This document shows positions 6,558 through 39,327 of a DNA stretch of 39,327 nt, one piece after another. How positions within the stretch are numbered: position 1 is the stretch's first letter; each line of letters opens with the position of its first letter. The stretch is taken from positions 1-39,327 of IMG/VR virus record IMGVR_UViG_3300037485_001466; one strand, 5' to 3'. The DNA comes from a virus. The notes under the pieces were generated by a model that worked only from the letters and a program-made list of their open reading frames with translations, made no database searches and was not told the origin of the DNA. The position numbers and the translations under genes are program-made.

Positions 6558-6575
6558 ACCTTTGGGATATTCTAC

Positions 6576-7208
6576 ATGCACGAGGTAAGCAAACTACGGA
6601 TACGCAGCGTGTTCACGAAGCTGGACCTGTCGATGGTCCCGTGCCGGTCGCACCGCTCGTTGAGCCCGAGCCTGTTCTTGCAGGAGGAGGTGGAGTTCTT
6701 GGAGCCACGGGTGCCGAAGGAACTATTCCATCTGGATCTGGAAGCGATGCTGCTGAACTACGAGATGTGGTACAGGTGGGAGAAGGAGAACCCGGAGGAT
6801 GGGGAACTCCTGACGTTGAACATCGGGAGCGTAAGTTCTACGATCAGATGCCCGACGAATCCCAAGACGCCTATATGCTACGTTTGCAGACGCTCACTGG
6901 ATCTGTTCACTTTCAGCCTCAAGGACGTACACGGTCTGCCAAGAGGGTTCTGCCCGTTACACGTATGGGAGAACGGGGTACGCAAGGAGTACCCGTCAGC
7001 GGTCAGCGAAGCAAAGAGGAACAATCAGAAGCCTCCGACAGAGGACAGCTACCTCGCAGCGCGACGCTCTTCTACAGTCCGCCAGTGGAACAGGGAGGAC
7101 GCGCTCTGGTGGGAGAACCAGAAGGCGCTCAGCACTCCAAGGTACTTGAGTTGGCTGGAGAGACAGAAGGATGCACAGGGGATCTTACTCTCCCAACCCT
7201 CACTGTGA
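6576..7208 (+). CDS. Putative zinc-binding protein, 210 aa
   Basis: This frame gives a protein rich in Trp, Tyr and Phe with a likely zinc site C101-x2-C104-x21-C126-x2-H129 (ICYVC ... FCPLH). Its codons end mostly in G or C, as in neighbouring genes. The same DNA is open in a second frame that starts at 6554 and runs into the methylase; there the translation is low-complexity (Gly, Pro, Val, Glu), as expected from an accidental frame. I therefore take this frame as the real one. The start at 6576 has only a weak upstream purine run, so a slightly different start is possible. Function unknown; it may bind nucleic acid. Confidence 0.62.
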   Translation: MHEVSKLRIRSVFTKLDLSMVPCRSHRSLSPSLFLQEEVEFLEPRVPKELFHLDLEAMLLNYEMWYRWEKENPEDGELLTLNIGSVSSTIRCPTNPKTPICYVCRRSLDLFTFSLKDVHGLPRGFCPLHVWENGVRKEYPSAVSEAKRNNQKPPTEDSYLAARRSSTVRQWNREDALWWENQKALSTPRYLSWLERQKDAQGILLSQPSL

Positions 7209-7213
7209 CCAGT

Positions 7214-8257
7214 ATGCTGGTTGGCAAGTCTCCTACTACAGTGGTAGAGGGGTACTTTCCGCCGTTGGCGCAGGGAGCGCCTGGCATTGGGCCTCGCCCC
7301 GACATCGAGGAGTACGAGTCTACATTCGAGATCGATCCGTACTCTGAACGCGCCTTCGAGCAAAGCTGGCTTGCCCCTACCGAGTCACTCATCGCTCGGA
7401 TGGGAGCCAAGAGCCAGCTTCGTACTTGGTTGGTGCAGAACTTCCCTCCGTGTCACACCTACGTGGAGCCGTTCGGCGGGTCGTTCAAGGTGCTACTCTG
7501 GAAGCCAACGGCGAACAAGATTGAGATCATCAACGACATCGACGCCGACCTTGTTCACTTCTTCCATTGGGTCTGCCACGACCCCAAGCGTCTGGTCAAG
7601 ACGATCAACTCCGTACCTATGCACGAGGCGGTCATCCTTGGTATGCGTAAGGGGCTCATCAAGCAGGAGCTTCATGGACTGGAGCGGGCCGCTGCGTTCT
7701 ACATCAGCAACTCGTCTGCGTTCAATGCCAAGGCGGCGCTCACCAACTACGCGAGCAGTCCGCACTCGTTGATGAATATCAAGATCAGCGAGAAGCAAGT
7801 GCTACTGGTAGCGGCCCGCTTGGATAAGGTGGACATGCGGAGCACCGACTTCCGCCGGGTAATCAACTCCGCGAACAAGGATCTACAGCCGGACAAGTAC
7901 CCGCCCGGGGGCGTTTTCTTTTACTTGGACCCTCCCTATTGGGGGACAAGTGGTTACGTTAGTAGCCAAGGTGCCAGCACCTTTGGATGGAAGGAGCAGG
8001 TCGAGCTTGCCGACTACTGCAACTCCATCGACGAGATAGGTAACAAGTTCATTCAAACAAACTCGGACCACGCTGACTTGATGGACCTGTATGGGAGCTT
8101 CAAGCGACCAGACGGCACCAACAAGTTCTTCGTGGTACGGCGCGACGTGTACTACTCGTTGGCAGGTAAGGGCGAGGATCGCGGAGACGCCGGTGAGTTC
8201 GTGATCAGCAACTTCCCTCTGGATCAGAAGGCCAAACAGAAAGGACTATTCTCATGA
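7214..8257 (+). CDS. DNA adenine methyltransferase, Dam/D12 class
   Basis: Motif GAKSQL near residue 63 (the AdoMet motif X, GxKxxL), then YVEPFGGSFKVL near 84 (motif I), DIDADLV, and DPPYWG near 239 (catalytic motif IV, DPPY) are in the right order and spacing for an alpha-class N6-adenine methyltransferase. It would methylate adenine in phage DNA, for restriction avoidance or control of replication or packaging. The start is uncertain: the frame is open back to 6554, where an ATGA junction with the helicase gene exists, but the upstream 220 codons look non-coding in this frame. The ATG at 7214, five bases after the zinc-protein stop, gives 347 residues, a little long for the family. Confidence 0.82.
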   Translation: MLVGKSPTTVVEGYFPPLAQGAPGIGPRPDIEEYESTFEIDPYSERAFEQSWLAPTESLIARMGAKSQLRTWLVQNFPPCHTYVEPFGGSFKVLLWKPTANKIEIINDIDADLVHFFHWVCHDPKRLVKTINSVPMHEAVILGMRKGLIKQELHGLERAAAFYISNSSAFNAKAALTNYASSPHSLMNIKISEKQVLLVAARLDKVDMRSTDFRRVINSANKDLQPDKYPPGGVFFYLDPPYWGTSGYVSSQGASTFGWKEQVELADYCNSIDEIGNKFIQTNSDHADLMDLYGSFKRPDGTNKFFVVRRDVYYSLAGKGEDRGDAGEFVISNFPLDQKAKQKGLFS

Positions 8258-10428: not shown

Positions 10429-10785
10429 ATGACCAGAGAAGAACTCGCCAAGAACATCTACAACGACTGGACGCAGCTTGGAGGCTGGGTGCCGTGGGTT
10501 GACGGAGGAAACAGCCTCATGCAGGACAAAGCCCGTGACGAAGCAGCCAAGCAACTCCCGCTGGAGCAGCGTTCCGATTGGGAGCCGTGGCAGCAGCGCG
10601 TCATCGACGAGAGCAAGGATCTGTCCGAGAAGATCCAGAAGCTCGGGTCTTACATCTTCAACGGCAAGCAGGACCACGTCAGCGACATCGACTTCAATCT
10701 GCTCGTGGAGCAGATGAAGCACATGAACGGCTACAGCATCGTGCTTCGCGACCGCATCGCGCGCTTCAACCTGGCGTCCGCTTAG
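10429..10785 (+). CDS. Conserved-looking phage protein with WVPWVDGGNS motif, 118 aa
   Basis: The ATG at 10429 has AAAGAGA at 10414-10420 before it; a GTG at 10396 in the same frame has no such site. The product has an N-terminal helix (EELAKNIYNDWTQL), then GGWVPWVDGGNSLMQDKARD, and a C-terminal helical pair with repeated spacing of hydrophobics (LLVEQMKHMNGYSIVLRDRI). Small proteins with such a W-x-P-W-x-x-GGNS part and helical tail recur in unrelated phages, sometimes under the loose name crystallin beta/gamma motif protein; their role is unknown. It is the last gene of the rightward operon, and its stop overlaps the stop of the converging late operon. Confidence 0.6.
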   Translation: MTREELAKNIYNDWTQLGGWVPWVDGGNSLMQDKARDEAAKQLPLEQRSDWEPWQQRVIDESKDLSEKIQKLGSYIFNGKQDHVSDIDFNLLVEQMKHMNGYSIVLRDRIARFNLASA

Positions 10786-13700
10786 AAGCTGAGCCTCCCG
10801 CTCTTCTTCGACTGGCGGTAGCGTCCCATGTTCGGGGCGCTACCGCTATCTACATCTTGGATGCGTTGCAGGAGGTTGCTCAACGCGTCGATGCGCCCCT
10901 TGTTGATATAGTATTTGCCAGTAGTAGTATCCGTCTTGTACGCAGAGATACCGAGGAAGTTCTTGGAGAGTTGCCAAGTATCCAGTCCCTTGCGAGTCTC
11001 GCCATCCATCTCGTAGACGGTCTTGAGCAGGCCAATCATCCTACCATGTGGGATCTTGTTCATCACCCAAGCCATCGTAGGGTTGTTGATGCTCGCCTTC
11101 TTGACTCCTGCCTGTGCGGGGCTGTAGCCCACAATCTCCTTGAGCCAAGCTGGGCTGGATGCCCACTCGTCTGCGTTAGCTGGAGCGTCCAGATCCCTAC
11201 CAGTGTAGAAGTCCCTCTGTACGAGAACCTCGGCAATGCGCATAGGAACGAACGACCCTCGTGAGGCGATGTGCCTCAAGAACTGATCGGAATCGTTGTC
11301 CGCCCCCGGGAGTACGGCAGACATCATAGCCGAGGCGTCCTCCAAGGCAGAGCCGAAGCCGGCTACGTTGACTACGGAGCCCTTACGCTTCTTCTCCGGG
11401 TCTGACAAGAACTTGCCAACCACGTCCCAATCTTTCGCCTTGGCGTAGAGGGATGAGTTCTTCGACGTAAGTGCGAGCTTCTCGTCCAAGCTGTCAGGCA
11501 TGTCCTCTGGGTCTACGTGGGCAGAACTGTTCCAGTCTTTGAAGAACTTGAATACCGTGGCAATCTTACCTGGGTCTTCGAGCGTCTGGAACGCGGTATG
11601 CCTCAGCGCGAGCTTCGTCCAACTGTAGAACGGGATTGCGCGCCGCATGAATCTACGCTCGAATACCGACATCGAGTGGTAGTTGTTCATGTGACGGTAG
11701 ACCTGCTCAGCGGCTTCCGACGCAGAGCCACTACGCTTGAACTCGTTCATAAACAGAGCCACTCGGAACGGCATCTCAGTAGCTGCCTCGCCCGGACGGA
11801 TGAAGGGTTTCCAGTCCGACTGGAGCAGACCTGCTACGCCACGCTTGCCCGCTACGGGGATACCTCTCCCTTTGATGCCAAGTGCTACTGCACCCATAAG
11901 AGCAGAGTACTCGGCGAACTGGTTGTCTTGGTCAAGGAGGCCAGCGTTTACGCCAGCCTGACCAACCACAGCACCACCAATGCCACCAAGAGTTGCTCCA
12001 GCCATGACGCCATTGAGGGCTCCCTTGAAACGAGTAGCGACCGGCATCGCACCGAACATCTCGCTCGATTGCATACCGTGATGGATGCCACGAATAGACA
12101 TCTGCTCGTCAAGCTCGCGCAATGTCATACTGCGGCCTGAGCGAGCAGTAACTACACGGTCCCCGAAACCCTCCAAGAACTTCTTGGTACGGGGGACGGA
12201 CCAGCCGAACAGCTTGTCACCCTCTCCGTAGCGGAGCAAGCCATAGGCTACTCCGGAGAGCATGTCTGCTCCGTTGGAGAAGCCATCCGTAGGATCGAGG
12301 AAGTCTACCCCGGTGCGCAGAGCGGTAGTTTGAGCAGCCTGCAATGCGTTACGTCCGTAGTAACCTGCGAACGGCAGAGTCATCTGCAACTTGAGGTAGT
12401 TCTGAAACGCATCCATGTTTCTGATTGCGGAACGTGCCCACTCCGACATACCTTCCGGCAAATCTGGAGCTTCCAAGTCCTTCAAGACTTTGGCCACTCC
12501 TTCTGGGATGTAGACCTTGTGCGTGATGGTCTTGGACTCCAATCGGTTCAGACCAGTCTGTACGATTGGTGGTGCGTCAATGCCACGAGCGAGGCGATGC
12601 TGATCCTCAATGGCGGCTGTCAACTGGTTCTTCAAGCCTACGTCATCAGGCGAGGCTGCGGACGCTTCACGGAGGCGGCGAACCTTATCAGCCGGAGTGA
12701 GCTTATCAATGATGTTGGGCTCACCGAGGATACCAGACGACGTAACTCCGTCGGTAGTGGCTTCCGCGTTGCGCGTCTTTGCAAGCTCTGAAAGGTGCTC
12801 GCGCTGCGCCTTGTTGAGTTCCTTACTCTGCTTGAGCAGGTCAGCATAACTGTCACCTGCTGGAGTCAACGACTTGACCTCTGCCTGCGTAGTCTTGACC
12901 TGAGCCTTGACTTCCTTCACACGCTTGCTGATGACCTTGAGCTTAGCGGCTGCGTCCTTGTAGCCTTCAAGACCACGCTGTGCGATCTTGAACTCGCGGG
13001 CAGCAGTCTCAGCAGCAATCTCACGCTTGCGAGATTCAAGAAGCTCGTCGAGTAGCTCCTTCTTCTTGAGCGCGGCGACGTGGCCCTTGAGTGCCTCATT
13101 GACGCGAGCACGTTTATCGTTGATGAAGTCAAGTGCTCCGCGACGACCTTCGAGGGCGGCCGTACCCTTCTCTGTGGAGTGGGGAGCGCGGGTGGTAGCG
13201 GAGACAGCAGCCCTGTCTACAAGCAACATCTCCGCATCAGCAATCTCACCAGGCTCAGGCTTGATGCGCCTCGCCACCTGACTCGTCTTGTCAAGCACAC
13301 CCTCAATCGTAGACACGCCACGGTCGAGGTCGTTCATCTCTGGCAGGAAGTTACCTTGGTACTTGCGCGTAGACGTGAATGTCCACTCAACGAGCCTGTC
13401 TGCTGCACGAGCATCGTACTTGCGCTGACGGCCAGTACCTTTGGTTGCTGCGTCAACAAGCTCTCCAGCATGATTGAGCGTTGGGCTTGCGTGCGTGTAC
13501 TGCTCCAAGCTGTCGAGGATAATGTCCACGTCTGCTTGGTACTGGACACCGTTCTTATGACCGAGCATGATGTAGGAATGTTGCGCGATATTCTCTGATG
13601 TGAACCCGAGTTTGGCGTAGATGGTATCCAGATGGTTCAGGTCAGTAGCCAACGGCTCTGCTGTGTCCACAATGTTGCCAATCATTCGTCGTGTTGCGTG

Positions 13701-16127
13701 AGCAAGCACTACCAGAGACTCCGGCAACTGCGGCACAAGGTTCTTGAACTCGAACCCTGTGCTCATGTTGGCAAGCGCCTTCTTGATCCCAGCCGCCTTG
13801 CCGGAGGTGATCCATTGCGCTTCACGCGCATGGTGGGTCCACGCCGCCATGACACGCTGCTCTACATCCGGGATAAACCCGGTCAACTGAGAGTCCAGAT
13901 TCTCCATTGTGAACCGATGGAACCCTTGCAGTAGACCTACTGCACGGTTGACATCACCTTTGGTTCGACCTACGGAGGTAGCGAAGATGTCCTTCCACTT
14001 CTCATGCTTCGGGTCAGCAAACATGTTCATCATGGTTTCGACCGGAAGCTCATCTGCCAGTTCCGGGGCGTTGTCAGTCATCGACGACAACTTGCCGGGA
14101 TTGAACTTGAACCGATCCGGGATGGGAGAGTTGAGCCCATCTGCGCCAGCCTTGTAGTGAAAGCGGGCAGCCTCGTTGTAGAGGTTGTCGCCAACACGCT
14201 CGGTAGTTTTCTTGCTCAAGAATCCAAGCAGATTCCTGTTGTAGAACAGGTCACCTTCCTTGAACCCGAGCTTGGACAGCGCCCCATTGCGAGCAGCATA
14301 GACCTGTCCGATGTTCATGATCTCATTCGGCCCATCGGAAATGCGACGAATCATGCCGACCACTACATTCTTAGCGGCACTATTACCCACGAACGAGGCG
14401 TGAACAATCGCTTGCGGGAGGCTGTACTTCTCCATCACGTACTTGAACAGGTCGCCTTTGGCAACCATATCAATAGACGCCCGTTGACGACGCTTGAGGA
14501 TCTCCAGCGGGTCCGTGATGAAAGCACCTGTCCCGTAGATGTCCTCACCCTCTGCGATGGAAGCGATAGCCCGGTGCTTGATGTACTTGTTCGCCTGACC
14601 AGAGAGAATCTCTTGGCCGTTCTTCTCCATGATCTTCGTGTACATGCGCTTTACGCCGGGAGAGGCGATATGGGTCACGTAGTCCTCGATCTCCTCCAAC
14701 GGATAGCCAGCGCCCTTCTCGTACTCGGCGATGTCGTCAAGCCCCTTACGGAAGGCAACGATAGCTGCCTCTGTGGCGTCGTCGAACACATCGTCGAATA
14801 CGCCAGCAGCGCGGCGCTCTACAGAGGTGACAATCTGGCTGCGAGACTTCTCCGTAAACAGACCTGCCTTCTCGAAGATGGACTCGAAGTGACGAGTCTT
14901 TGCTGCCATGAGTTGACTTGTGCCAACTTGCATGAGTTGAATCTGCTGGTTGATCTCAGCCGGAGCTTGCCAACCCTTGTCGAAGTTGTCGAACAGCCAC
15001 TCCATCGGCTTCGCCACAATGGACGGAGCCGAGATGACCTTGTTCTTACCAGCGAGGAATCGTTGTGCCTTGTTGATGTCGTAGACACCACGCTCCTTCG
15101 TGAAGAAGGTAGCCGTCTCTTGAAACATGTCATCGACGCCGTAGCCTGCGAACTTGCGTACTTTGTTGCCAGCTACAGCGCCGAGCTTGTCAGCGTTCTT
15201 GACGATAGTTGCACGGGCAGCTTCACCTGCTGGAGCGATCACTCGCTTGATCTTGTTCCACTTCGTACCGTTGGAGATCTGGGCAAGGTACTCCTTCTGG
15301 AGTGTCGGGAAGTTCTGTACCAGATGATCCGTGATCTTCGCATACTGCGCGGCGACGAGCTTGCCATCAAGGCCGCCGTGTGCGAGGACTTCTGCGTGCA
15401 ACTGTGGCGACAGTCGTTGAGCAGCGAAGTCAAACATCGCCTTGCCGAACGGCGTCTGTGTGAGAGTCTGCCCCGCACCTACGAGCTTCTCTGAACCAGA
15501 TGCGGCACGCGCTCCTTGAGATACGGTAACCTTGGCACCAGCAGAGCTACCAAGCGTCAGGTAACTTGTGGGGTCAAGAGCGATGTCGGCCACGAGCCCA
15601 AACGTGAAGTTGGCTGTGTCCTCGTCGAGGCCGAAGTAGTTGTTGTTGAACACTCCGTTCTCGTCGAACAGTTGAATGAAGGACTTCTTGTTGCGCCATG
15701 CGTCGCGGAAGGCTCCAGTAGAGAAGCCAACTGACGGGGCAAGCAAGCTGTCAGAGTAAGCGTTGTCCTTCGCGCCCTCCGTAGCTCCGTGTGCGACAGA
15801 AGCTATGAAGTGGTTCGGCATGAGGAACACATCACCGAGCCCCTCCAAGAAGGAACCAGTGTTGTTCTCGTTCTTCTGGCCGGTGAGCTTTTGCAGCCAC
15901 GTAGAGTGATCTGTACCTTTCGCTTCGGCGTATTCCTCTGACGAGATTACGCCCTGCGCCTGCGCCTGCTGAAGCTCCCAATCCTTCTGCGCGTACTGGT
16001 GCTTCTGTGCCCGCAGATCCTCTACGCCAATGATACCATCATCGGGATGATCGTTGAAGCCAAAGCCAGAACGTGAGAGGACACGACGATTTGCCTCGTC
16101 AGAATCGTAGCGGCTACTATATGGCAT
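10782..16127 (-). CDS. Giant internal virion/ejection protein, 1781 aa
   Basis: The largest gene in the window is the last of the late operon. Its start shares one base with the stop of the preceding gene (TAATG). The protein is mostly helical, with a long charged coiled-coil-like stretch at about 1020-1115 (rich in K, E, A), a glycine-zipper and hydrophobic stretch near 1370-1420 (GGIGGAVVGQAG), and RRAIPFYSW near 1496. Following two smaller coiled or Gly-zipper proteins, it takes the place of T7 gp16 or similar ejection proteins that enter the cell with the DNA. No lysozyme-type (SLT) catalytic motif or polymerase motif was recognised, so the enzymatic content, if any, is open. Position and size, rather than homology, support the call. 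Confidence 0.6.
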   Translation of the reverse strand: MPYSSRYDSDEANRRVLSRSGFGFNDHPDDGIIGVEDLRAQKHQYAQKDWELQQAQAQGVISSEEYAEAKGTDHSTWLQKLTGQKNENNTGSFLEGLGDVFLMPNHFIASVAHGATEGAKDNAYSDSLLAPSVGFSTGAFRDAWRNKKSFIQLFDENGVFNNNYFGLDEDTANFTFGLVADIALDPTSYLTLGSSAGAKVTVSQGARAASGSEKLVGAGQTLTQTPFGKAMFDFAAQRLSPQLHAEVLAHGGLDGKLVAAQYAKITDHLVQNFPTLQKEYLAQISNGTKWNKIKRVIAPAGEAARATIVKNADKLGAVAGNKVRKFAGYGVDDMFQETATFFTKERGVYDINKAQRFLAGKNKVISAPSIVAKPMEWLFDNFDKGWQAPAEINQQIQLMQVGTSQLMAAKTRHFESIFEKAGLFTEKSRSQIVTSVERRAAGVFDDVFDDATEAAIVAFRKGLDDIAEYEKGAGYPLEEIEDYVTHIASPGVKRMYTKIMEKNGQEILSGQANKYIKHRAIASIAEGEDIYGTGAFITDPLEILKRRQRASIDMVAKGDLFKYVMEKYSLPQAIVHASFVGNSAAKNVVVGMIRRISDGPNEIMNIGQVYAARNGALSKLGFKEGDLFYNRNLLGFLSKKTTERVGDNLYNEAARFHYKAGADGLNSPIPDRFKFNPGKLSSMTDNAPELADELPVETMMNMFADPKHEKWKDIFATSVGRTKGDVNRAVGLLQGFHRFTMENLDSQLTGFIPDVEQRVMAAWTHHAREAQWITSGKAAGIKKALANMSTGFEFKNLVPQLPESLVVLAHATRRMIGNIVDTAEPLATDLNHLDTIYAKLGFTSENIAQHSYIMLGHKNGVQYQADVDIILDSLEQYTHASPTLNHAGELVDAATKGTGRQRKYDARAADRLVEWTFTSTRKYQGNFLPEMNDLDRGVSTIEGVLDKTSQVARRIKPEPGEIADAEMLLVDRAAVSATTRAPHSTEKGTAALEGRRGALDFINDKRARVNEALKGHVAALKKKELLDELLESRKREIAAETAAREFKIAQRGLEGYKDAAAKLKVISKRVKEVKAQVKTTQAEVKSLTPAGDSYADLLKQSKELNKAQREHLSELAKTRNAEATTDGVTSSGILGEPNIIDKLTPADKVRRLREASAASPDDVGLKNQLTAAIEDQHRLARGIDAPPIVQTGLNRLESKTITHKVYIPEGVAKVLKDLEAPDLPEGMSEWARSAIRNMDAFQNYLKLQMTLPFAGYYGRNALQAAQTTALRTGVDFLDPTDGFSNGADMLSGVAYGLLRYGEGDKLFGWSVPRTKKFLEGFGDRVVTARSGRSMTLRELDEQMSIRGIHHGMQSSEMFGAMPVATRFKGALNGVMAGATLGGIGGAVVGQAGVNAGLLDQDNQFAEYSALMGAVALGIKGRGIPVAGKRGVAGLLQSDWKPFIRPGEAATEMPFRVALFMNEFKRSGSASEAAEQVYRHMNNYHSMSVFERRFMRRAIPFYSWTKLALRHTAFQTLEDPGKIATVFKFFKDWNSSAHVDPEDMPDSLDEKLALTSKNSSLYAKAKDWDVVGKFLSDPEKKRKGSVVNVAGFGSALEDASAMMSAVLPGADNDSDQFLRHIASRGSFVPMRIAEVLVQRDFYTGRDLDAPANADEWASSPAWLKEIVGYSPAQAGVKKASINNPTMAWVMNKIPHGRMIGLLKTVYEMDGETRKGLDTWQLSKNFLGISAYKTDTTTGKYYINKGRIDALSNLLQRIQDVDSGSAPNMGRYRQSKKSGRLSF
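10815..10846. terminator. Hairpin at the convergence of the two operons
   Basis: A perfect 9-bp stem (GCGGTAGCG at 10815-10823 with CGCTACCGC at 10838-10846) and 14-base loop lies about 30 bases past the rightward stop and inside the last codons of the leftward 1781-residue gene. It could stop transcription of the rightward operon and stabilise the 3' end of the late messenger. No U-run follows on either strand, so simple intrinsic termination is doubtful. Confidence 0.4.
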
Positions 16128-26099: not shown

Positions 26100-27209
26100 C
26101 TACCACGTTTCCCAACGGCTGCCGTTGTCCGAGCCAGCGACACCGTTGTCGTTGAGGCGGCTGACGCCGAGGTTCATCGAGGTGATGGTCCACTCGGTCT
26201 GCTGCAACTGGCGGTACGGGCTGCGAGGCACAATCTTCCGCATGTTGATGTTCGGGTGCTGGATGATGCCAAAGCAGCCGTTCAACTCCAGAGCGGAGTT
26301 CTTGCCGATGTCCTCGAGGTCGCGGTCCAGCTTGGCGGTGTCGCGCGAGTCGCCCGTGCGGTTCGAGTCGTACTTCTCGTCGAGGTGGAGAGCGTAGATG
26401 GAGTCGGCCGGGCAGGAGGGGTCCCATGCCATCGGGATGCCATCGAAGAGGAAGTTCTGGAAGCCGAAGTCGGCCGCCTTGCGTTCCGTCATGAGATGGT
26501 ACGGGGTGCTCATCTCGAGCATGGCGCGCTTGAACAGGTTGAAGCACGCCTTCGTGGTGATCAGGTCCGACGGGATAAGCGTCGTGTTGGTCGTGTTGTT
26601 GATGAGGCTCAACAGCGCGAGCACGCCGGCCGGGAGGGTCGTGCCAGCCGAGATGGTCCCGAAGTTCGCCGCGAGCTGGACGTACTGGTTGCGGAACCAA
26701 GGCTTCGTAGCCTTGTTGACTCCGCTGACCACCGCGGTCTGCGAGCCGGGCGCGGCCTTCTCGAGGATGGTGCTCAGGCCGTCGGGCTGCTTGCCACCGG
26801 AGCCGGTCCAGAGCGCAGCGGCGAGGGTGCGGCGGAGCGCCCACGACGTCTCCATCGCCTGAATCTCCAACTGGTCGAAGACCTGGTTGGGATCGTGCTC
26901 CTTCTGCCACATCTCCAACTGGTCGAACCCGGAGGGAACGACGCAGTAGCGGTTCGTCCAGTAGCCCATTGCCGGCTGGGTCGAGGTCGCGTCTGGGAGT
27001 GTGTCGCCCTTGTCGATCCACTTGCCCATCTGGGGAGGGGCGATGTAGAACGGCACCTGCAAGGAGTCGTAGACCTTGAAGATGTTTCCCGCCTGCCGCA
27101 TCCGGTAGTACAGGTAGTTCTTCAACATCTCCTGGACGACGAGCTTCTTGGCGCGCTCATCGACCGCTTGGATCAGCGGCAGGGACTCGGTGTAGGTGCG
27201 AGGCGTCAT
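26100..27209 (-). CDS. Major capsid protein, HK97-like
   Basis: The 369-residue product lacks any catalytic motif and shows the pattern of HK97-fold coat proteins: an N-terminal helical arm (AKKLVVQEMLKNYLYYRM), a middle region with AMETSWALRRTLAAAL, and the FGFQNFLFDGIPMAWDPSCP segment that recurs in many coat proteins around the E-loop/P-domain area. It follows a scaffold-like gene and precedes decoration genes. It builds the icosahedral head. Codon choice is highly biased, in line with being the most abundant virion protein. Confidence 0.82.
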   Translation of the reverse strand: MTPRTYTESLPLIQAVDERAKKLVVQEMLKNYLYYRMRQAGNIFKVYDSLQVPFYIAPPQMGKWIDKGDTLPDATSTQPAMGYWTNRYCVVPSGFDQLEMWQKEHDPNQVFDQLEIQAMETSWALRRTLAAALWTGSGGKQPDGLSTILEKAAPGSQTAVVSGVNKATKPWFRNQYVQLAANFGTISAGTTLPAGVLALLSLINNTTNTTLIPSDLITTKACFNLFKRAMLEMSTPYHLMTERKAADFGFQNFLFDGIPMAWDPSCPADSIYALHLDEKYDSNRTGDSRDTAKLDRDLEDIGKNSALELNGCFGIIQHPNINMRKIVPRSPYRQLQQTEWTITSMNLGVSRLNDNGVAGSDNGSRWETW

Positions 27210-28347: not shown

Positions 28348-30261
28348 TTACATTTCTCCGGTTCCGGTGCCTGTCCTCAGCGCCCCTGAAAGTGCGTTAC
28401 CGAGGTTCACACCTCGGTCACCCATCTGTCGTTCGGGATGCTGTCCGGCTCCTGCATCCATCATACCTTGCCCTTGTGGAGCAAGGCCAGAAATATCTTG
28501 CAGGGCGGCGGAAAGCGCAGGGTTAACCGCCGGAATCGCCGCTGCGCCCGCCCGGGCCATCAGCATGGTTGGGGTAAGGCCGAACTTCCGCACGAACTGA
28601 CGAGCGATCTCCGGCTGATTGAAGAACTGGAGAAGCGCTCCACCAGTGTCAGAGTACAGCAGTCTCAGAGCCTGCACGAGGATGAGCCTGTCCTCTGTGG
28701 TGGCTGACTGGTCGGCATCACGAAGCTGAACCTCGTAGATGTACGACGAAGTGAAGTCGTGAGTGCCAGCGTCCATCGACACCATGTCGGACCCGTACTG
28801 ATACTTGCGGCTACGAGTGCTGTTGAACATGGCTACGAGGTGCATCAGCTTGAGCACCACCTGAACGAGCGCATCGTTCACAGGATCTTTCATGCCCTCC
28901 ACGTTGATGCCGGTAGCATCGAGGAGAGCTTGCGTCTGACGAGCGGTAATGTCCTTGACCGCTTGTCCACGGTCCAGGTCGGAGGAACCGCTCGACGACT
29001 GAGCCTGACCCTTGATCCAGTTGATTGCCGCGATCAAGTTCTGGTCGAACGACTCCTCACCGATCCGCTTCACAGCGTTCGGGTCGTTGATCTTGATCAC
29101 GCCGTTGTAGTTGTCGTCGTTGAGCTTCTTGTCCTCACCGTCTGCGAGGCCAGCCGCATCGGGTACGCCCCACTTGCGGTTGAGCATCCGGTTGAGAGAG
29201 CGGAACATCGCCTTGCTGCCCTTATCGAAGGCGTCAGCATAGGGCTTCAACTCCTCTGCGAGGGTGATGTCGTACATCTTCTTGAGCTTGGACAGCTTCA
29301 CCGGAGTGAGCGGGATCATGCCTCCGAGCGGAGCCTTGGCGCACTTGACAACATTGTGTGGCTCGTTGAAGATGTAGGAGACGAAGTAGTTGTTGTACTC
29401 CGGATCGTTCCGGTCCCGGATGATCCAAAGCTCCGCGACCATGAGCATGTTTGGGAACAGCTTGATGTTGTCGCCCTCCACCGTCTCGAACAGGTAGATG
29501 AACTCAGAGTTCACGGCAGCCTTGTTGGGGTACTGATACCCGCTCATGGTCTGCAACTCCTTGATCGTGAGGAATCGGAAACGACAGATGTAGTCCATCC
29601 CGTCCCGATCTTTGGCGTTCAGGTTCGTGATCACGTAGCGCGGGTCAACGGACGCGGCCCACGGGTAACCGAACAGAGGTGAGAAGATCGGCGCGGGCTC
29701 AGGGGCCTCGGCCTCGGAGGGGAAGCTCTCCAACGGGGAGAAGGCATCAACCTCCTCGGTAGGTACGCCCCGCATCTGGAGGTCCTCAGCGGGCACTTCC
29801 TCGAAGCGGTCGATGTTCTCGCGACCGCCCTCCACGTTCGGCGTGGTGAGCTTCCTCATCATGTCGAGGGAGTACGGGTCCATCGGGTGCCCCACTTCGA
29901 CCCACCCCTGCGAGGCCCACGTAGCAGAGGTGAGAGCGTCCTTGAACGCGTCGGGCACCTTGGCGATACGAGACACAGACTTCGCCACGATGGCGGCGTT
30001 CTCTGCCTGATCCTTGAAGTCAGGGTCGTCAGGGTCGATGGTGATCTCGGGGGTGCTCGCGAGCAGCCGGGAGTGCAGCATACGAACGAACTCGCTGGCG
30101 AGGTTTCCGGTACGGTTACCTCGGGCGTTGCTGGAGTCGTCGCTGTTGCGGACCAGAGCGTAAGCCTCGGCCCACTTCTTGTCAAAGCGCCCGCGGCGAG
30201 TGATGAGATCGCTCTTGATGCGGAGATCCCAAGCGGCGAGGTTTTCGATGGGGATGTTCAT
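28348..30261 (-). CDS. Portal protein
   Basis: The product (637 residues) starts at 30261, the ATGA overlap with the terminase stop, with GGAGG about ten bases before; an ATG at 30270 is only one base from that site and is less likely. Content fits a portal: helical N-terminus, RMLHSRLLASTPEITIDPDD, a strand-rich wing region and a long stem helix region near the C-terminus, with Gly/Gln-rich tail (GQGMMDAGAGQHPERQMGD). It is flanked by terminase and scaffold genes, the canonical place. It forms the dodecameric vertex for packaging. Confidence 0.78.
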   Translation of the reverse strand: MNIPIENLAAWDLRIKSDLITRRGRFDKKWAEAYALVRNSDDSSNARGNRTGNLASEFVRMLHSRLLASTPEITIDPDDPDFKDQAENAAIVAKSVSRIAKVPDAFKDALTSATWASQGWVEVGHPMDPYSLDMMRKLTTPNVEGGRENIDRFEEVPAEDLQMRGVPTEEVDAFSPLESFPSEAEAPEPAPIFSPLFGYPWAASVDPRYVITNLNAKDRDGMDYICRFRFLTIKELQTMSGYQYPNKAAVNSEFIYLFETVEGDNIKLFPNMLMVAELWIIRDRNDPEYNNYFVSYIFNEPHNVVKCAKAPLGGMIPLTPVKLSKLKKMYDITLAEELKPYADAFDKGSKAMFRSLNRMLNRKWGVPDAAGLADGEDKKLNDDNYNGVIKINDPNAVKRIGEESFDQNLIAAINWIKGQAQSSSGSSDLDRGQAVKDITARQTQALLDATGINVEGMKDPVNDALVQVVLKLMHLVAMFNSTRSRKYQYGSDMVSMDAGTHDFTSSYIYEVQLRDADQSATTEDRLILVQALRLLYSDTGGALLQFFNQPEIARQFVRKFGLTPTMLMARAGAAAIPAVNPALSAALQDISGLAPQGQGMMDAGAGQHPERQMGDRGVNLGNALSGALRTGTGTGEM

Positions 30262-32441
30262 TGGAGCCATTCCTCCGCATCCAGCAGGACGCAGTCAGAG
30301 AGTTTGAAACCTTTCTGTGGTTCTTCTACAACCGTGGGAACTACATGTTTGACAATCACCGGAGCTTTTATGTCCTTGCCTCCGCACCGCCACAACCTAC
30401 AAGTCTGCGAGTGAGCCTCGGCCATCACTCCGTCGTCATGGAAACCGGCCGCCGCTTGCGGCTTCACTTTCGCCCCTATCATCTTGTTGATGAAGTGTTC
30501 AATCTGCGAGTACAGGTACGCGTAGAAAATGCGCTTTGGATCACGCGAATAACTTGCACGCAACTGTGCGAGCAGATCGGGCCGGTTACTCCCCACTACG
30601 GTCCACATCCGATCTTGGATAGGGCGCGTCTCTGGTTGTGAGGTGTAGAAGTTGTTCGGATAGCCTGTCTTGATCACATCCATGAGGACAGTGTAGCCCA
30701 CACTGTTGCGCTCACCGTTGATCCAAGCCATATTGTACAGACGAGCCACCAAGATCAGATGCAACCAGAGTTCTTCCGGTCGGCACCTACCATGCCATAC
30801 CGCCACGGTAGATCCAAACTTGTTCTTGATGGAGATGAACGATTCGTCGGGCTCATTCTCTCCACCCGACTTGGCTACCGTCTTTCCCTCTGAGATGTCT
30901 ACGCCTGCGTAGTATTCCATCCCTGGTTCTGGAGCTTCCCAGATTTTAAGCTCACCGAACTTGTCGTCTACCAACTTGGGTAGCAGATTGTGGTGGGAGC
31001 AAGGTCGAAGATGGTCCGCAAACCCGTTGGCGTCTACCACCCGACCAGTAAAGCTCGGTGGAATCAGGTTACGAGCCATGATCTTGAGCGTAGACGGGGC
31101 AAAGTAGGTGGACGCTACGTTACGCCACGCATGTTCCGGAGTAGTAGGGTACTCTTGGTCGAAACTGGAGCGATTGCCGTTGAACTTCCGCTTGATCTGG
31201 TGGCGACGCCAGAGGATCTGCTCAAACCTAAGATGGTAGCGTTGCGCGTACTGTTCTTCGTTGAGAGTTATGTTCTCGCCAGTCTCTTCGTCGATGTAGG
31301 TGTCGAACAGGTCCTCATCGTTGTTGGCATAGTCGGGAAGAACCCGATTACTCGGGATGGCATACTCAGGAGAGATGTGCCAAGGCAGGAACACGGGGTA
31401 AACGTAGCTGTCCTCCCCGCCCTTCTGCTCCATCGCCAGCGTCCAGCCCTCGTAGAAGGCGTCCATACCGACGGCGGTAGACTCATCGACGTGGACCGTC
31501 ATGATCGAGTCAGGCAAGCCGGGGAGCACGGAGTTCTGTACCTCAAGAGCCCGCTTGGCAGGCCACTTGGGCTTCTCGGACTCGTGTACGACGTGGATCA
31601 TCTCCGACGTACCGGGGTTCGGAGCCTGTGCGGACTCGAAGAATATCTTGGAGCGGTTACTAAGGAATACCACTCCACCTTCACGCTTCACCATCTTGGG
31701 AAGGTGAGGGAAGATCTCCTTAATCCGCTTCAACCACTCGATCACCATGTCTCTCTTGGTGACGTTGTGCTCATCTTTGTCGATGATAAACATGACATGG
31801 TAGCTGTCTTGGGTCAGACACATCCAAACCCAGAAGGCAAGCAGGTAGGTGGTACACCCAAGCTGCCGAGCCTTGAGGATCTTCAGCCGCAGAGGCTTCT
31901 TCTGGATGAACATCACCTGCGCGAAGAGCGCCCATAGCTCCTTCTGCGCATGGTTCAGGATGAAAGGCCCCGATCCACCGTGGGGGAACTCTGGGTTCAT
32001 ACCCGGACGGTAGGTAATCTGGAGCGCGTGCTTGCAGAAGTGCTCAAAGTCCGACCGAACTCGCTTGGGATCGGGGAACTCGGCCAGTTGAACCACTGGT
32101 TTTACGGGTAGGACCGGCTCGGTGAGTACGGTGACTACCTCTTTCTCGAAGGGCTTCCGCTTGACCGGCTTGGCAAAGCTCTCTTGCGTAGCCAAATCCA
32201 GTAGCGCCTGCTTACGAGCCTGTGAAAACTGCTCGCGAGTGATCTCGTTGTCGTACACGACCCTACTAAGGTCGCAGTACTCCTTGATCTGCGCGTTCAG
32301 AGTATCAAGCTCAGCCCGAAGTTGCGCCTCCTTATCAGGTTTGGCGTTCTTCAAGAAGATGCTGACTACGCTCCGTCTACCAATGAGTTCCAATACTGTG
32401 GACTCAAGGAACAGAGCGTCATTGTCATTCCTCTTTGACAT
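30258..32441 (-). CDS. Terminase large subunit
   Basis: The 727-residue product has an N-terminal extension of about 150 residues, then ATPase motifs: deviant Walker A KARQLGCTT at 190-198 (Lys before, not after, the Gly), as in many phage terminases, and IHVVHESEKPKWP near 282-294 in the Walker B area. The C-terminal half contains YYAGVDISEGK, an RNase H-like nuclease start with Asp. It drives packaging and cuts the DNA, with a helical small partner encoded just upstream. The first 150 residues have no recognised function. Confidence 0.85.
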   Translation of the reverse strand: MSKRNDNDALFLESTVLELIGRRSVVSIFLKNAKPDKEAQLRAELDTLNAQIKEYCDLSRVVYDNEITREQFSQARKQALLDLATQESFAKPVKRKPFEKEVVTVLTEPVLPVKPVVQLAEFPDPKRVRSDFEHFCKHALQITYRPGMNPEFPHGGSGPFILNHAQKELWALFAQVMFIQKKPLRLKILKARQLGCTTYLLAFWVWMCLTQDSYHVMFIIDKDEHNVTKRDMVIEWLKRIKEIFPHLPKMVKREGGVVFLSNRSKIFFESAQAPNPGTSEMIHVVHESEKPKWPAKRALEVQNSVLPGLPDSIMTVHVDESTAVGMDAFYEGWTLAMEQKGGEDSYVYPVFLPWHISPEYAIPSNRVLPDYANNDEDLFDTYIDEETGENITLNEEQYAQRYHLRFEQILWRRHQIKRKFNGNRSSFDQEYPTTPEHAWRNVASTYFAPSTLKIMARNLIPPSFTGRVVDANGFADHLRPCSHHNLLPKLVDDKFGELKIWEAPEPGMEYYAGVDISEGKTVAKSGGENEPDESFISIKNKFGSTVAVWHGRCRPEELWLHLILVARLYNMAWINGERNSVGYTVLMDVIKTGYPNNFYTSQPETRPIQDRMWTVVGSNRPDLLAQLRASYSRDPKRIFYAYLYSQIEHFINKMIGAKVKPQAAAGFHDDGVMAEAHSQTCRLWRCGGKDIKAPVIVKHVVPTVVEEPQKGFKLSDCVLLDAEEWLQ

Positions 32442-35536: not shown

Positions 35537-35662
35537 ATGTGGTTGATGCTGATTCTCTTGCTCTGCTGCTCACAGCCATTTACGACGTATGAGAGACATT
35601 GCTACATTGACGATGTGGAGGTTCTCTGTGAGGACGGGGAAGATGACTCTGGCGACTCTTGA
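35537..35662 (+). CDS. 41-aa secreted or lipoprotein-like peptide
   Basis: A short gene with GGAAGG six bases before its ATG and its own candidate promoter. The product opens with a very hydrophobic run (MWLMLILLLCCSQP) ending in Cys-Cys-Ser, then an acidic tail with two more Cys and many Asp/Glu. This looks like a short lipoprotein signal with lipobox Cys at position 10 or 11, though the residues before Cys are Leu rather than the usual Gly/Ala/Ser and no basic residue leads. Phage lipoproteins of this size act as outer-membrane spanins or block superinfection. An uncleaved membrane peptide is the alternative. Confidence 0.5.
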   Translation: MWLMLILLLCCSQPFTTYERHCYIDDVEVLCEDGEDDSGDS

Positions 35663-36023
35663 ATAACTGCGGTCCTGTTTCGGGGCGAGGTCCCAGATGA
35701 AGGATATTGTCCCGCGCGGGCGTGGGGCAGGTCGCGGTCCTTGGCGCCCCATACTGACCCGTTAGTCGGTTGCACACTCATGCGCAGATATAGCTCGGCC
35801 TGTCACACACACGCAAACCGAGCTATCCAAGCTAAGACCGAGCTAACTCGGCCGCGCCCGTTGGCACCAGTCGCGCTCTGGCGTCGATCCGCCCGTTGCG
35901 CGTAGGGGCGTAGCGGCCCAGATGTCAGAAACCCCGTAGCGGCGAAATGACGCTCTGACGGCGTTTAGGGGTTTAGGGGTAGATCCCTCATGTAGTTTCG
36001 AGGTCTGGTGCGGAAAGGCACTA
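35663..36023. other. Noncoding stretch with hairpins
   Basis: No gene with a ribosome-binding site is seen. A perfect 9-bp stem (ATAGCTCGG 35790-35798, complement 35818-35826) with 19-base loop is followed by a second hairpin (CCGAG 35838-35842, CTCGG 35847-35851) sharing the same CCGAGCTA half. A GC palindrome CCCGCGCGGG lies near 35720. These could end the message of the small peptide gene or bind protein. A TTTAGGGG direct repeat occurs near 35970. Confidence 0.4.
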
Positions 36024-36100
36024 GGGGACGAGGGCAGCCGACGGCAGGGGACGAGGGCAGCCGACGGCAGGGGACGAGGGCAGCCGACGGCAGGGGACGG
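36024..36100. repeat. Three 23-bp tandem repeats plus partial fourth
   Basis: Identical 23-bp units, each beginning GGGGACGAGGG and ending CCGACGGCA, occupy 36024-36046, 36047-36069 and 36070-36092, with a partial copy GGGGACGG at 36093-36100. The units are G-rich on the plus strand. They may bind a protein, mark an origin or packaging region, or be a slippage-prone neutral repeat. Confidence 0.85.
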
Positions 36101-36203
36101 CGTGAGCATGGTGCATTTACGGACGAACGCCGGTTATTCCGTTTACAGTGGGTGTACTCAACGTCACTATCGGCCGCGAAGCTGCGTTTACGCCGAGAAA
36201 CCC

Positions 36204-36215
36204 TTGACGCGTCAA
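36204..36215. promoter_or_regulatory. 12-bp perfect palindrome TTGACGCGTCAA
   Basis: The palindrome is a possible operator for a dimeric DNA-binding protein. Its half TTGAC(G/A) recurs at 36293 and 36651 and, on the minus strand, four times at 36896-36939. No promoter -10 element is evident next to it. Confidence 0.4.
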
Positions 36216-36640
36216 ACAGGGTGCAGAGAAACCGATCGGCGACTACACTCGGTGCAACCTGCATTATCCGCCGAAATACTCACCCGAAAGTCTTGACGTT
36301 GCTTGCGTACAACAGGGAGAAACAAGGATGTTCCTTCACACTTTCAGATCACTACCCCCCCTAACTATACAGATACATACTACTCTTCTTCTATGTCATT
36401 GATATTGCTTACACCCATTCGGATTCTGGTGCTGCTCTGTTACACACTATCTGTCAAGGGTATCTGATCAGATTCTCAATAATAGCTATTAGTGCAGCTT
36501 CAATGTACTCAATCACTTTCCTTAATGATTCTACACTCATGGAAGAAACGTAGGTGCTATCTGCATAGTTGGAAGGTACACCGATCCGATGTCTTCCCAG
36601 CCCCGCCCCGGACGGCCGAAAGTGAAGGGTATAAACGTTT
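36216..36640. other. Noncoding stretch, AT-richer than its surroundings
   Basis: No convincing gene on either strand. From about 36360 to 36590 the DNA is visibly richer in A and T than the flanks, which would ease strand opening next to the repeat-rich area that follows. A 28-codon minus-strand reading (36454-36540) lacks a ribosome-binding site and is not called. Confidence 0.4.
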
Positions 36641-36652
36641 GGAAAGCCCCTT

Positions 36653-36682
36653 GACAGCGCCCGGGTAACCAGACAGCGCCCG
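36653..36682. repeat. 11-bp direct repeat pair
   Basis: GACAGCGCCCG occurs at 36653-36663 and 36672-36682, 19 bp apart from start to start. The first copy overlaps a perfect TTGACA at 36651. Possibly a protein-binding pair; no -10 element is clear downstream. Confidence 0.6.
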
Positions 36683-36720
36683 ATCCGACCCGTCAGAGCA
36701 CCTCGTAAGTACCTGATATC

Positions 36721-36741
36721 ACTACAGATTCCCCCTGTAGT
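36721..36741. other. Short hairpin
   Basis: ACTACAG (36721-36727) and CTGTAGT (36735-36741) form a 7-bp stem around a 7-base C-rich loop. It lies between the direct repeats and the 17-bp dyad cluster. It could be a terminator without U-run or a binding site. Confidence 0.4.
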
Positions 36742-36795
36742 AGAGATGCACGCGTAGGGGCCGAATACCTAAGCAATATCACGCACTTAGCTCCA

Positions 36796-36880
36796 TGTGA
36801 CGCTTTACGTCATGCTACGATCCGCATGGTAGGCTCTATGTGACGTAAAGGGTCACCTCGGACTGACGTAAATGGTCACA
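36796..36880. repeat. Three copies of a 17-bp dyad (candidate iterons/operators)
   Basis: Copies are TGACGTAAAGGGTCACC at 36841-36857, TGACGTAAATGGTCACA at 36864-36880, and one in inverse orientation at 36796-36812 (reads TGACGTAAAGCGTCACA on the minus strand). Each unit has inner symmetry TGAC-N7-GTCA. The direct pair is 23 bp apart. This is the kind of array bound by an initiator or regulator. Confidence 0.75.
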
Positions 36881-36895
36881 TGCCCGGGCGCGCTC

Positions 36896-36939
36896 GTCAA
36901 GGAAGTGTCAAGCAAGCGTCAAGGAAGTGTCAAGCTCAG
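36896..36939. repeat. Four 11-bp helically phased repeats
   Basis: GTCAAGGAAGT, GTCAAGCAAGC, GTCAAGGAAGT and GTCAAGCTCAG run end to end at 36896-36939. The 11-bp period places each GTCAAG on nearly the same face of the helix. On the minus strand each contains CTTGAC, related to the palindrome half at 36204. They directly precede the structured-RNA region. Confidence 0.8.
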
Positions 36940-37950
36940 ACGGGCCATGAGTTAAGTGCCTGTTATCATTACCTTGGCACGGCCATTGCTAAGACCCTGT
37001 TTGCCGGTGAAATGGCACACGGGTAGCAAGCGGTTCCAGTCCGTAGCTAACCGCAAGGTTTCTACAGACTCCGCCTTGACAGTCTCCGCAAGGAGGTTAC
37101 ATGGTACGGGTAAGCAGAAACGAACGGTGTACGGCAGCTAACGCCATAAAGATAGCTGCATTGACATTCTGGTAAGTAACGTCAAGATGCCACCGGGCAT
37201 AAGACGGTAAACCCGCAAGTAAGCACGTCGTGAGACAGTACTGAACGCGGGGACGGCGAAGAGCCGATCATCCGTTAAGTATCCGGGTACCCCGCGACGC
37301 TCACAGAATAAGAAAGCTCTTTGCAAGGATAGGACATCTCACATCTGACTATCAGTCAAGCACGCATACCCTGCTCAATACAACGTAGCAGACACGGGCA
37401 AGACTTCCATCCCGAAGGGTTTACACCCCGAGCGAGATGTGCCAAGCAAGACAATGATATGGTGCGCAAGCGTAAGACTACCTGCAAACGGAGGTAGCAG
37501 ACAGCGCAACTAAGGCCCTAACGGGTAGGATGTTAGCTGACACGGCGTCAAAGAAGAAACGTTCCTAAGCGAACGGACGCAATAGTATAGTTGTCAGTGA
37601 TTAATCTCCGGAGTACGGAGTATCCGAGTAAGACAAACACCTTGTAATGGGGTGACTTGTTAGGCAAATAGAAAGGACAAGCGCGGTAAACGAGGTACGC
37701 TTTCATAGGCGCATCTTAGCTAACCCGCCGCGCTTGAGATAGTAGGCTACATGCTAAGCTGGTAACACGTTAGGCCGCACACTGAGGCTGACGGCGCATG
37801 TAGTGACTACAGGGTAACGGCGGTGAGCGTACAACGTGCAAACGTCAGGGCGCTCACTACCCGCTATGAACGCACAGCGATAAAGTGTAACATGGACCAT
37901 TAAGCGTCCGCTCATAAGCTGTGCGTTCATACCGGGTATGTCCCCCGGAC
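36940..37950 (+). ncRNA. Candidate very large structured noncoding RNA (~1 kb)
   Basis: No credible gene lies here, yet perfect stems follow one another along the whole stretch. Examples: TTGCTA/TAGCAA (36986-37029); a nested stem 37030-37074 made of GCGG/CCGC, AGTC/GACT, GTAG/CTAC and AACC-GCAA-GGTT; CTCC-GCAA-GGAG (37084-37095); GCAGCTA/TAGCTGC (37134-37159); CGCGGGG/CCCCGCG around CGGC-GAAGA-GCCG (37246-37296); CTACCT/AGGTAG (37478-37497); 8 bp AAGCGCGG/CCGCGCTT (37679-37735); 8 bp CTACATGC/GCATGTAG (37747-37803); GTGAGCG/CGCTCAC around ACGT-GCAA-ACGT (37823-37857); 13 bp ATGAACGCACAGC and complement (37866-37930); CCGGG/CCCGG (37932-37948). GCAA tetraloops appear only when read on the plus strand, which sets the orientation. 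Size, phage origin and architecture recall GOLLD and ROOL RNAs; I cannot match a family. Ends are approximate. Confidence 0.75.
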
Positions 37951-37971
37951 AACGCAACGAGGTAACCAACT

Positions 37972-38139
37972 ATGTCAATGATCCATCTCGAAGAAGTCTA
38001 CGCCACGCTCACCGCAGCGGCCATGCCTTGCACCTCCAATGAAGGCTGGCACCGTGCGGCCCGTAAAGCAGCGCGGGATCTCAAGGCGGGCGATACCCGT
38101 GCAGCCGTGCTCTTCGTGGCCCGGTGGGGTGTGAAGTGA
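37972..38139 (+). CDS. Small helical protein, 55 aa
   Basis: The ATG at 37972 follows GAGGTAAC at 37959-37966, the leader seen before other genes here. The product starts MSMIHLEEVYATLTAAAMP and has a basic helix (WHRAARKAARDLKAGD). It is the first gene after the large structured RNA. Its stop overlaps the next GTG start by four bases. Function unknown; the basic helix may bind nucleic acid. Confidence 0.6.
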   Translation: MSMIHLEEVYATLTAAAMPCTSNEGWHRAARKAARDLKAGDTRAAVLFVARWGVK

Positions 38140-38366
38140 GCGAACGTCAAGATCGTATCGACATCGGAGCGCGCTTGATCGAGCGCGACATGATCGGTGC
38201 GTGTGCCTTCGAGGCACGACTGAGCTACCCGATCCAGCGCATGACACATGATCTGTTGATGAACGAGATCATGTACCAGAAGGATACCGGCGTAGCTAAC
38301 GCCGACTTCCTCGCCGATCTGGAGAAGTTGCGTACTGCACTCCGTCAAGTGATGCGCTACTACTGA
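38136..38366 (+). CDS. Small helical protein, 76 aa
   Basis: The GTG at 38136 overlaps the previous stop (GTGA), so the two genes are coupled. The product is almost all helix (IDIGARLIERDMIGACAFEA, HDLLMNEIMYQKDT, DLEKLRTALRQVMRYY) with mixed charge. No family is recognised. A long minus-strand reading across this and neighbouring genes is a shadow. Confidence 0.6.
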   Translation: MSERQDRIDIGARLIERDMIGACAFEARLSYPIQRMTHDLLMNEIMYQKDTGVANADFLADLEKLRTALRQVMRYY

Positions 38367-38376
38367 CAACCACGGC

Positions 38377-38395
38377 CCGGGCGACGCTCGCCCGG
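38377..38395 (+). terminator. 8-bp GC hairpin after the coupled gene pair
   Basis: CCGGGCGA (38377-38384) pairs perfectly with TCGCCCGG (38388-38395) around a 3-base loop. It lies ten bases past the stop of the 76-residue gene and is not followed by a U-run. It may protect or separate messages. Confidence 0.45.
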
Positions 38396-38398
38396 TGT

Positions 38399-38436
38399 CC
38401 GCTATAGCCCCGCGTGCTAACGTCGGGCTATAGCGG
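38399..38436 (+). promoter_or_regulatory. 12-bp hairpin upstream of the bL12-like gene
   Basis: CCGCTATAGCCC (38399-38410) and its exact complement (38425-38436) enclose a 14-base loop. It stands directly before the leader of the bL12-like gene, so it may insulate or tune its translation, or be an RNA processing site. The stem holds the sequence CTATAG, reminiscent of phage promoters, but no longer match was found. Confidence 0.5.
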
Positions 38437-38451
38437 GTAATGAAACCTGCA

Positions 38452-38465
38452 TAACCAGAGGTAAC
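38452..38465 (+). promoter_or_regulatory. Recurring leader TAACCAGAGGTAAC with ribosome-binding site
   Basis: The same leader, AGAGGT preceded by CC and followed by AAC, is found at 38866-38879 before the 80-residue gene and, with one change (TAGCC), at 39290-39303 before the last gene; a shorter GAGGTAAC precedes 37972. All place AGAGGU 6-13 bases before the ATG. It is a shared, probably strong, translation start element. Confidence 0.7.
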
Positions 38466-38471
38466 CAAGAT

Positions 38472-38807
38472 ATGATCCGTATCATCGCACAGAGTTTCAG
38501 CGTCATGGAGGCAACTTGCGCCATCAGTTTCGGCGAGGTTGTTGGCTACGGGAACACGATCCGACGCGATACCGTCAACGATCGGAGGTACATCCTCCCG
38601 TTGACGGAGAAGATCACGGCGATCAAGATGTACCGCTACTGCAATGGCGGGGAGCCCGGGCTCAAGGAGTCGAAGGAACTCATCGAGAAGCTCATCGAGA
38701 TGGGTGTCAAGGTTGTGGAGTTTGAGATCAACACGTCTCACTTCCACGTCAACAATACCGGGTACGCCGAGAAGCTCGGCGCCGTCCAGTCTACGATCAT
38801 CTACTGA
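38472..38807 (+). CDS. Protein with ribosomal bL12 C-terminal-domain-like segment, 111 aa
   Basis: Residues 45-75 contain LTEKITAIKMYRYC then GLKESKELIEKLIEMG. In bacterial ribosomal protein bL12 the C-terminal domain has K-x-x-VIK-x-VR-x-x-TGLGLKEAK-x-LVE, the helix that contacts translation factors. The match of KI..IK...R.....GLKE(S/A)KELIE is good, with a 3-residue insertion (NGGEP) and no bL12 N-terminal dimerisation part. The first 45 residues are different. Virus-encoded bL12-like proteins are known; this one may bind host ribosomes or translation factors. The gene has a leader and hairpin upstream. Confidence 0.6.
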   Translation: MIRIIAQSFSVMEATCAISFGEVVGYGNTIRRDTVNDRRYILPLTEKITAIKMYRYCNGGEPGLKESKELIEKLIEMGVKVVEFEINTSHFHVNNTGYAEKLGAVQSTIIY

Positions 38808-38880
38808 CAGTAGTACGAGTTGAGCCGGTGGCACGAGCCGTCGGCTGCGCCCGCACTATCGCGGATAACCAGAGGTAACT

Positions 38881-39123
38881 ATGCTTTCATACGAAGAACA
38901 GAAGGCGGCCGTGCAGGTCGCGGTCGACAGCTTCCCGATTGAGTTCGGCCTGCGAGGCTTTCCCGGCGAGAAGTTCCGTGTCTCTCCGAGCGCGAGCTAC
39001 TACAGCACGAGCTACGGAGTGATGATCTACACGCAACGCTACGACCACGAGCGCGGCTGGCTCGACTTTGCCAAGGGTAGCCCCGGCGAGTTGCGTGCGC
39101 AGATCGTCAAGCTGCCGGCGTGA
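38881..39123 (+). CDS. Hypothetical protein, 80 aa
   Basis: The ATG at 38881 follows the shared AGAGGTAAC leader; a hairpin (AGCCG 38823-38827, CGGCT 38842-38846) lies in the gap before it. The product has a helix (SYEEQKAAVQVAVDSF), then beta-rich text with several Tyr and Ser (SASYYSTSYGVMIYT). Its stop overlaps a following GTG. Function unknown. Confidence 0.6.
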   Translation: MLSYEEQKAAVQVAVDSFPIEFGLRGFPGEKFRVSPSASYYSTSYGVMIYTQRYDHERGWLDFAKGSPGELRAQIVKLPA

Positions 39124-39284: not shown

Positions 39285-39304
39285 GCGATTAGCCAGAGGT
39301 AACT

Positions 39305-39327
39305 ATGTATATGATCCCATTCTACTG
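39305..39327 (+). CDS. Start of a gene cut by the right edge
   Basis: An ATG at 39305 follows the AGAGGTAAC leader at the usual distance. Seven codons (MYMIPFY) are visible before the window ends. Nothing can be said on function; the operon clearly goes on to the right. Confidence 0.55.

Follow-up and report, generated by a model that had tools for sequence, protein, structure and literature searches.

A kilobase of noncoding, RNA-like sequence before the early genes of a phage: a candidate large structured RNA

What might a phage use a kilobase of DNA for, if that DNA holds no credible gene and stands directly in front of a set of early-looking genes? Such a segment occurs in the window analysed here, by which we mean the whole of a 39,327-base IMG/VR virus record. 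Several suggestions can be made regarding its role, and they differ in whether the segment acts as RNA, acts as DNA or does nothing in particular.

The phage and the setting of the segment

Profile searches identify a terminase large subunit (30258-32441), a major head protein (26100-27209) and a D12-type DNA methyltransferase (6554-8257) in the window, while similarity to phage records identifies a primase/helicase (1446-4628) and a RecD-like helicase (4983-6557). Judged by its sequence, the source is a tailed phage and a very isolated one; its capsid and portal matched nothing in about 50,000 phage records. The structural genes run leftward. The early-looking genes (37972-39123) and the replication genes, which lie at the opposite end of the record, run rightward. 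No tRNA was found in the window. The largest protein of the phage (1,781 aa, leftward, 10782-16127) has weak relatives, at 24-30% identity, in two related records, G045 and G046. No terminal repeat was found at the window's ends, positions 1 and 39327. The distance from control region to primase is about 9 kb in G046, as against about 3 kb in the window with its ends joined, and the record may be missing several kilobases of early genes.

The features around the segment are as follows.

36023..36099, no strand assigned: three perfect tandem 23-bp repeats, GGGGACGAGGGCAGCCGACGGCA, in the control region
36794..36882, no strand assigned: three operator-like palindromic copies of TGACGTAAA(G/T)GGTCAC, in inverted and direct orientation
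36895..36935, plus strand: four GTCAAG units at 11-nt phase, immediately before the RNA-like segment
36940..37970, plus strand: noncoding RNA-like segment of about 1 kb, candidate large structured RNA or structured leader, marked by lack of ORF and periodicity, by A/T skew and by GCAA hairpins
37972..38139, plus strand: orphan ORF of 55 aa, the first early one behind the segment, with a GAGGT ribosome-binding site
38124..38366, plus strand: early ORF, 80 aa, no family
38472..38807, plus strand: early ORF, 111 aa, no family

The noncoding interval extends from about 35,650 to 37,971, and 3-base periodicity is absent throughout it; repeats occupy the part up to about 36,935. The TGACGTAAA(G/T)GGTCAC copies, upstream of the early operon, are probably sites for a repressor. 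The segment lies where an earlier note on this DNA had put it, flanked by a control region rich in repeats and by an operon that looks early. The first early ORF begins about 20 nt past the last hairpin of the segment. Further along, a hairpin of 13 bp that contains an inner GC stem (38395-38440, z -5.3, no T run) stands between the ORF that ends at 38366 and the one that starts at 38472, and is possibly an RNA processing or stability element. Three consecutive early genes share a nearly identical leader, AACCAGAGGTAAC(N)ATG, at 38453-38469, 38867-38883 and 39291-39307; it is absent from the rest of the window.

The segment belongs to the longest part of the window that is free of ORFs (36365-37974). 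Its longest stop-free stretch in any of the six frames is 68 codons, its 3-base periodicity (1.2-1.4) lies well below the genome median of 10.6, and its six-frame pieces match nothing in the phage loci compared. The claim that it contains no credible gene is thus upheld, and a check for reading frames running through the region found none that was credible. The plus-strand AT skew of 0.226 is the highest among 39 bins of the window, and the A content is also the highest. The A excess and the hairpins with GCAA loops set the segment apart from the rest of the noncoding interval, and the skew and the loops fall on the same strand (plus). One ORF of 24 codons (37101-37175) lies inside the segment with AAGGAGG in front, a site that overlaps a GCAA hairpin. 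Neither a sigma-70-type promoter nor an intrinsic terminator was found at the ends of the segment.

Hairpins, predicted fold and tests against chance

The predicted elements, all on the plus strand, are listed below; the individually scored hairpins were chosen for folding well, so their z-scores are somewhat flattering.

36956..37467: domain I (predicted), with a long-range, two-part closing stem
37027..37078: three-tier hairpin with a GCAA cap at 37053-37056, z -4.0
37084..37095: CTCC-GCAA-GGAG hairpin, overlapping the possible Shine-Dalgarno sequence of the 24-codon ORF at 37101
37246..37296: 7-bp stem around a CGGC-GAAGA-GCCG pentaloop hairpin and a second hairpin, z -2.3; the GAAGA pentaloop is lambda boxB-like
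37470..37955: domain II (predicted), with only a weak 4-bp closing stem, pair probability 0.57
37676..37738: 10-bp stem with an inner hairpin, z -3.5
37820..37860: stem with an internal loop, capped by ACGT-GCAA-ACGT, z -4.0
37858..37938: 3'-terminal 20-bp compound (double) hairpin, 81 nt, with a perfect 14-bp core, z -7.2

The predicted closing stem of domain I pairs 36964-36970 with 37453-37459 and 36973-36980 with 37439-37446, at a pair probability of about 0.7; it was equalled in 14 of 400 shuffles. Near the 3' end there is a perfect stem of 14 bp (37865-37878 with 37918-37931), and no stem of this length arose in 300 shuffles. It also corrects the range of 4-13 bp given earlier for the stems. 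When folding was scanned in 150-nt windows, only the 3' end of the segment stood out (37840, z -4.8, the second lowest window).

Three GCAA hairpins with perfect 4-bp stems are present on the plus strand (37049-37060, 37084-37095 and 37834-37845). Not one of 1000 dinucleotide shuffles contained as many as three GNRA hairpins whose stems reached 4 bp; GCAA closes three of the six tetraloop hairpins in the segment versus none of 140 in window positions 1-35640 (1 of 140 on the other strand); and a linker, YAAGAC, occurs six times versus 0.7 in shuffles, although GCAA and YAAGAC were spotted in the very sequence tested, which makes these P values post hoc. The statement that such loops are confined to the plus strand is correct for GCAA but not for GNRA loops generally, as the minus strand of the segment has one GNRA hairpin, with GTAA. 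Other long ORF-free gaps, in distant relatives, carried no comparable GNRA signal.

The sheer number of stems is a different matter. Perfect stems of 6 bp or more number 27 in the segment, compared with 20.4 ± 4.5 in dinucleotide shuffles and 28 ± 6 in windows taken elsewhere in the phage. The at least twenty stems reported before are hence real, but their count is not unusual, and being near both shuffles and other windows it is no evidence for a structured RNA. The same ambiguity affects folding energy. The whole region folds with z -3.3 on the plus strand and -3.8 on the minus strand (100 shuffles each), lower than shuffles on both, but this is within the range of coding windows of the same phage, which average -1.8 (sd 1.5) with several at -4 to -6. 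Positional entropy and the number of certain pairs in the segment did not differ from shuffles.

Known RNAs help to calibrate these values. Under the same folding test the ROOL RNA of plasmid pMP118, its strand fixed by cmscan, gave z -1.2, and the lncRNA of phage ICP1 gave z -2.5. Since a proven ROOL RNA and the ICP1 lncRNA score so modestly, single-sequence energy can neither prove nor refute an ornate RNA. The controls carry a wider caution, which is that single-sequence folding energy fails to separate proven ornate RNA from coding DNA.

Known RNA families and the two relatives

If the segment is an RNA, does it belong to a known class? It had been suggested that it might be a member of a class such as GOLLD or ROOL, or of a new one. 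A search of the whole window with 4,227 Rfam families gave no credible match and none at threshold; on 36400-38500, with E up to 10, there were two matches, the best at 15.6 bits (E 5) on the minus strand. The covariance models of GOLLD (RF02032) and ROOL (RF03087) gave no match on the window, while in a positive control the same tool found the known ROOL plasmid with the ROOL model at E 6.5e-28. Membership in GOLLD or ROOL is therefore rejected.

ROOL and GOLLD RNAs form homo-oligomeric cages, GOLLD as a 14-mer and ROOL as an octamer. As a candidate RNA, the segment would resemble GOLLD in being phage-borne and noncoding, with nested stems and a similar length (about 800 nt or more for GOLLD), but it does not match the Rfam model, which covers the conserved 3' half. 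With ROOL it would share being phage-borne, noncoding and large, but the Rfam model of 574 positions is unmatched. tRNA islands are often near GOLLD and ROOL (PMC12286853), whereas the segment has no tRNA nearby.

A closer parallel may be offered by ICP1, whose most abundant transcript is a lncRNA of about 800 nt from an ORF-less gap of about 1 kb between ORF139 and ORF140 (PMC7567579). Both loci are ORF-less gaps of about 1 kb without tRNA neighbours, and both have an A-rich RNA strand, a GNRA-capped hairpin and no credible Rfam match. The differences are that the ICP1 lncRNA lies at the lysis cluster and ends in an intrinsic terminator (a GC hairpin and a T run), whereas the segment stands at an early control region and has no such terminator; and that expression of the ICP1 lncRNA is known by RNA-seq, whereas the segment is known here from its sequence. 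Sequence similarity between the two does not go beyond chance. Shared k-mers and local alignment are at chance level, and blastn of the segment against a phage collection containing ICP1 matched no record. Kinship by way of three shared 9-mers, which are motif-like words, was considered and rejected, their number being at chance.

Searches for homologues of the segment itself were equally silent, in collections from which records very close to the window may be missing. Blastn with E up to 10 against phages and plasmids, and against 48 viral records and 398 bacterial genomes of one phylum, returned chance words only, and gapped DNA patterns of the predicted loops gave only chance matches in viral and genome collections. 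A phylum-wide search with the capsid gene found no match, and terminase and primase profiles led to no relatives closer than 22-33% identity. A capsid-protein scan recovered two relatives, G046 (45,238 bases, with repeated ends) and G045 (24,216 bases), at about 46% identity in the capsid and about 42% in the terminase.

In both relatives TGTCAAG/CTTGACA repeats, related to the GTCAAG units of the window, stand before the early genes. In G046 an early ORF (L128:12757) starts about 25 bases behind CGTCAAGAC repeats. In G045, oriented like the window, three long TTGACATTTTGTTGACA-containing repeats come first, and the first early ORF (L129:593) begins no more than about 90 bases behind them. A kilobase of noncoding sequence behind the control-region repeats is lacking in both. 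Since both are without it, the segment was either gained in the lineage of the window or lost in the two others; on this comparison it is lineage-specific. The G045 repeats (L129:678-853) are three 31-nt copies with two TGTCAA units each at 11-nt phase. This phase also occurs in the window at 36896-36929, which suggests a shared regulator or promoter type.

What the segment may be

A large untranslated structured RNA is the most economical reading of the segment, and we think it probable that it is a structured RNA of one kind or the other, either stand-alone or the leader of the early operon. More specifically, it is possible, and we favour it tentatively, that a lineage-specific structured RNA of about 1,000 nt accumulates separately as a stable RNA. 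The best reading is an unclassified, early-transcribed structured RNA comparable to the ICP1 lncRNA of about 800 nt. That it represents a new class of ornate phage RNA, whose length of about 1,000 nt would exceed that of typical GOLLD and ROOL members, we regard as rather doubtful.

In a first alternative the RNA is the same but is a structured 5' leader, which remains attached to the early mRNA and controls it in cis by attenuation, antitermination, RNA stability or ribosome access. The short distance to the first ORF and the lack of an intrinsic terminator in between are what such a leader would look like. The GAAGA pentaloop hairpin at 37254-37266, together with a boxA-like GCTCTTTGCA at 37316, recalls parts of the lambda and P22 nut sites, which lie in an early transcript. 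The resemblance is weak, as the order is reversed, the copy single and buried in 1 kb, and no N-like antiterminator was recognised. To our knowledge, phage leaders such as nut or put are far shorter than 1 kb, and the relatives manage without any such leader. We consider a leader unlikely. A stand-alone RNA is preferred by analogy with ICP1, GOLLD and ROOL, because the segment is long and because the relatives lack it and yet regulate the same operon, but the preference is only a modest one, since no terminator separates the segment from the ORFs.

It would be still more surprising if the segment had no dedicated function, being noncoding filler, the remains of decayed genes or a handful of very short ORFs, with hairpins that are partly due to chance. 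The unexceptional stem number, base-pair certainty and energy agree with this, as do the 24-codon ORF with its AAGGAGG site and the absence of the segment from the relatives. GCAA hairpins and a 14-bp stem are nevertheless unlikely by chance, the six-frame pieces match nothing in the phage loci compared, and we know of few cases in which unused DNA of 1 kb is kept in a phage genome. Marginally less probable again is a DNA element, such as a replication origin, a partition site or an array for a regulatory protein, in which the inverted repeats would work at the DNA level. The segment borders on tandem repeats, on palindromes of operator type and on GTCAAG units with an 11-nt phase, at the point where transcription diverges, and the folding z is similar on both strands. 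But the control repeats end at about 36935 with no iterons within the segment, the GCAA loops and A skew are strand-specific, and the cumulative GC skew has no turning point there.

If a stand-alone RNA is correct, the following picture can be drawn. Transcription would run rightward from the control region at 36.0-36.9 kb, placing the RNA at the start of the early transcript, from which it might be released or processed. From about 36,950 on it would form two or more domains built of nested hairpins and connected through A-rich linkers, in which a helix-AA-GAC-helix arrangement recurs, with GCAA-capped hairpins available for tertiary contacts. The very stable terminal double hairpin would protect its 3' side, and the stable RNA would most likely accumulate during infection. 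It may serve as a scaffold or form an assembly, like the cages of ROOL and GOLLD, which might hold for the ICP1 lncRNA too. Under the more demanding suggestion of a new class, the RNA would have been acquired by one phage lineage between the early control region and the first early gene, and would be among the first products of infection.

GOLLD, ROOL and the lncRNAs of ICP1 and phage K are abundant in infection, and their function is unsettled. If our reading is true, an unrelated RNA at the very head of an early operon would be an argument for the repeated invention of such RNAs by phages, and at least one large phage RNA would be tied to the takeover phase instead of to tRNA islands or lysis.
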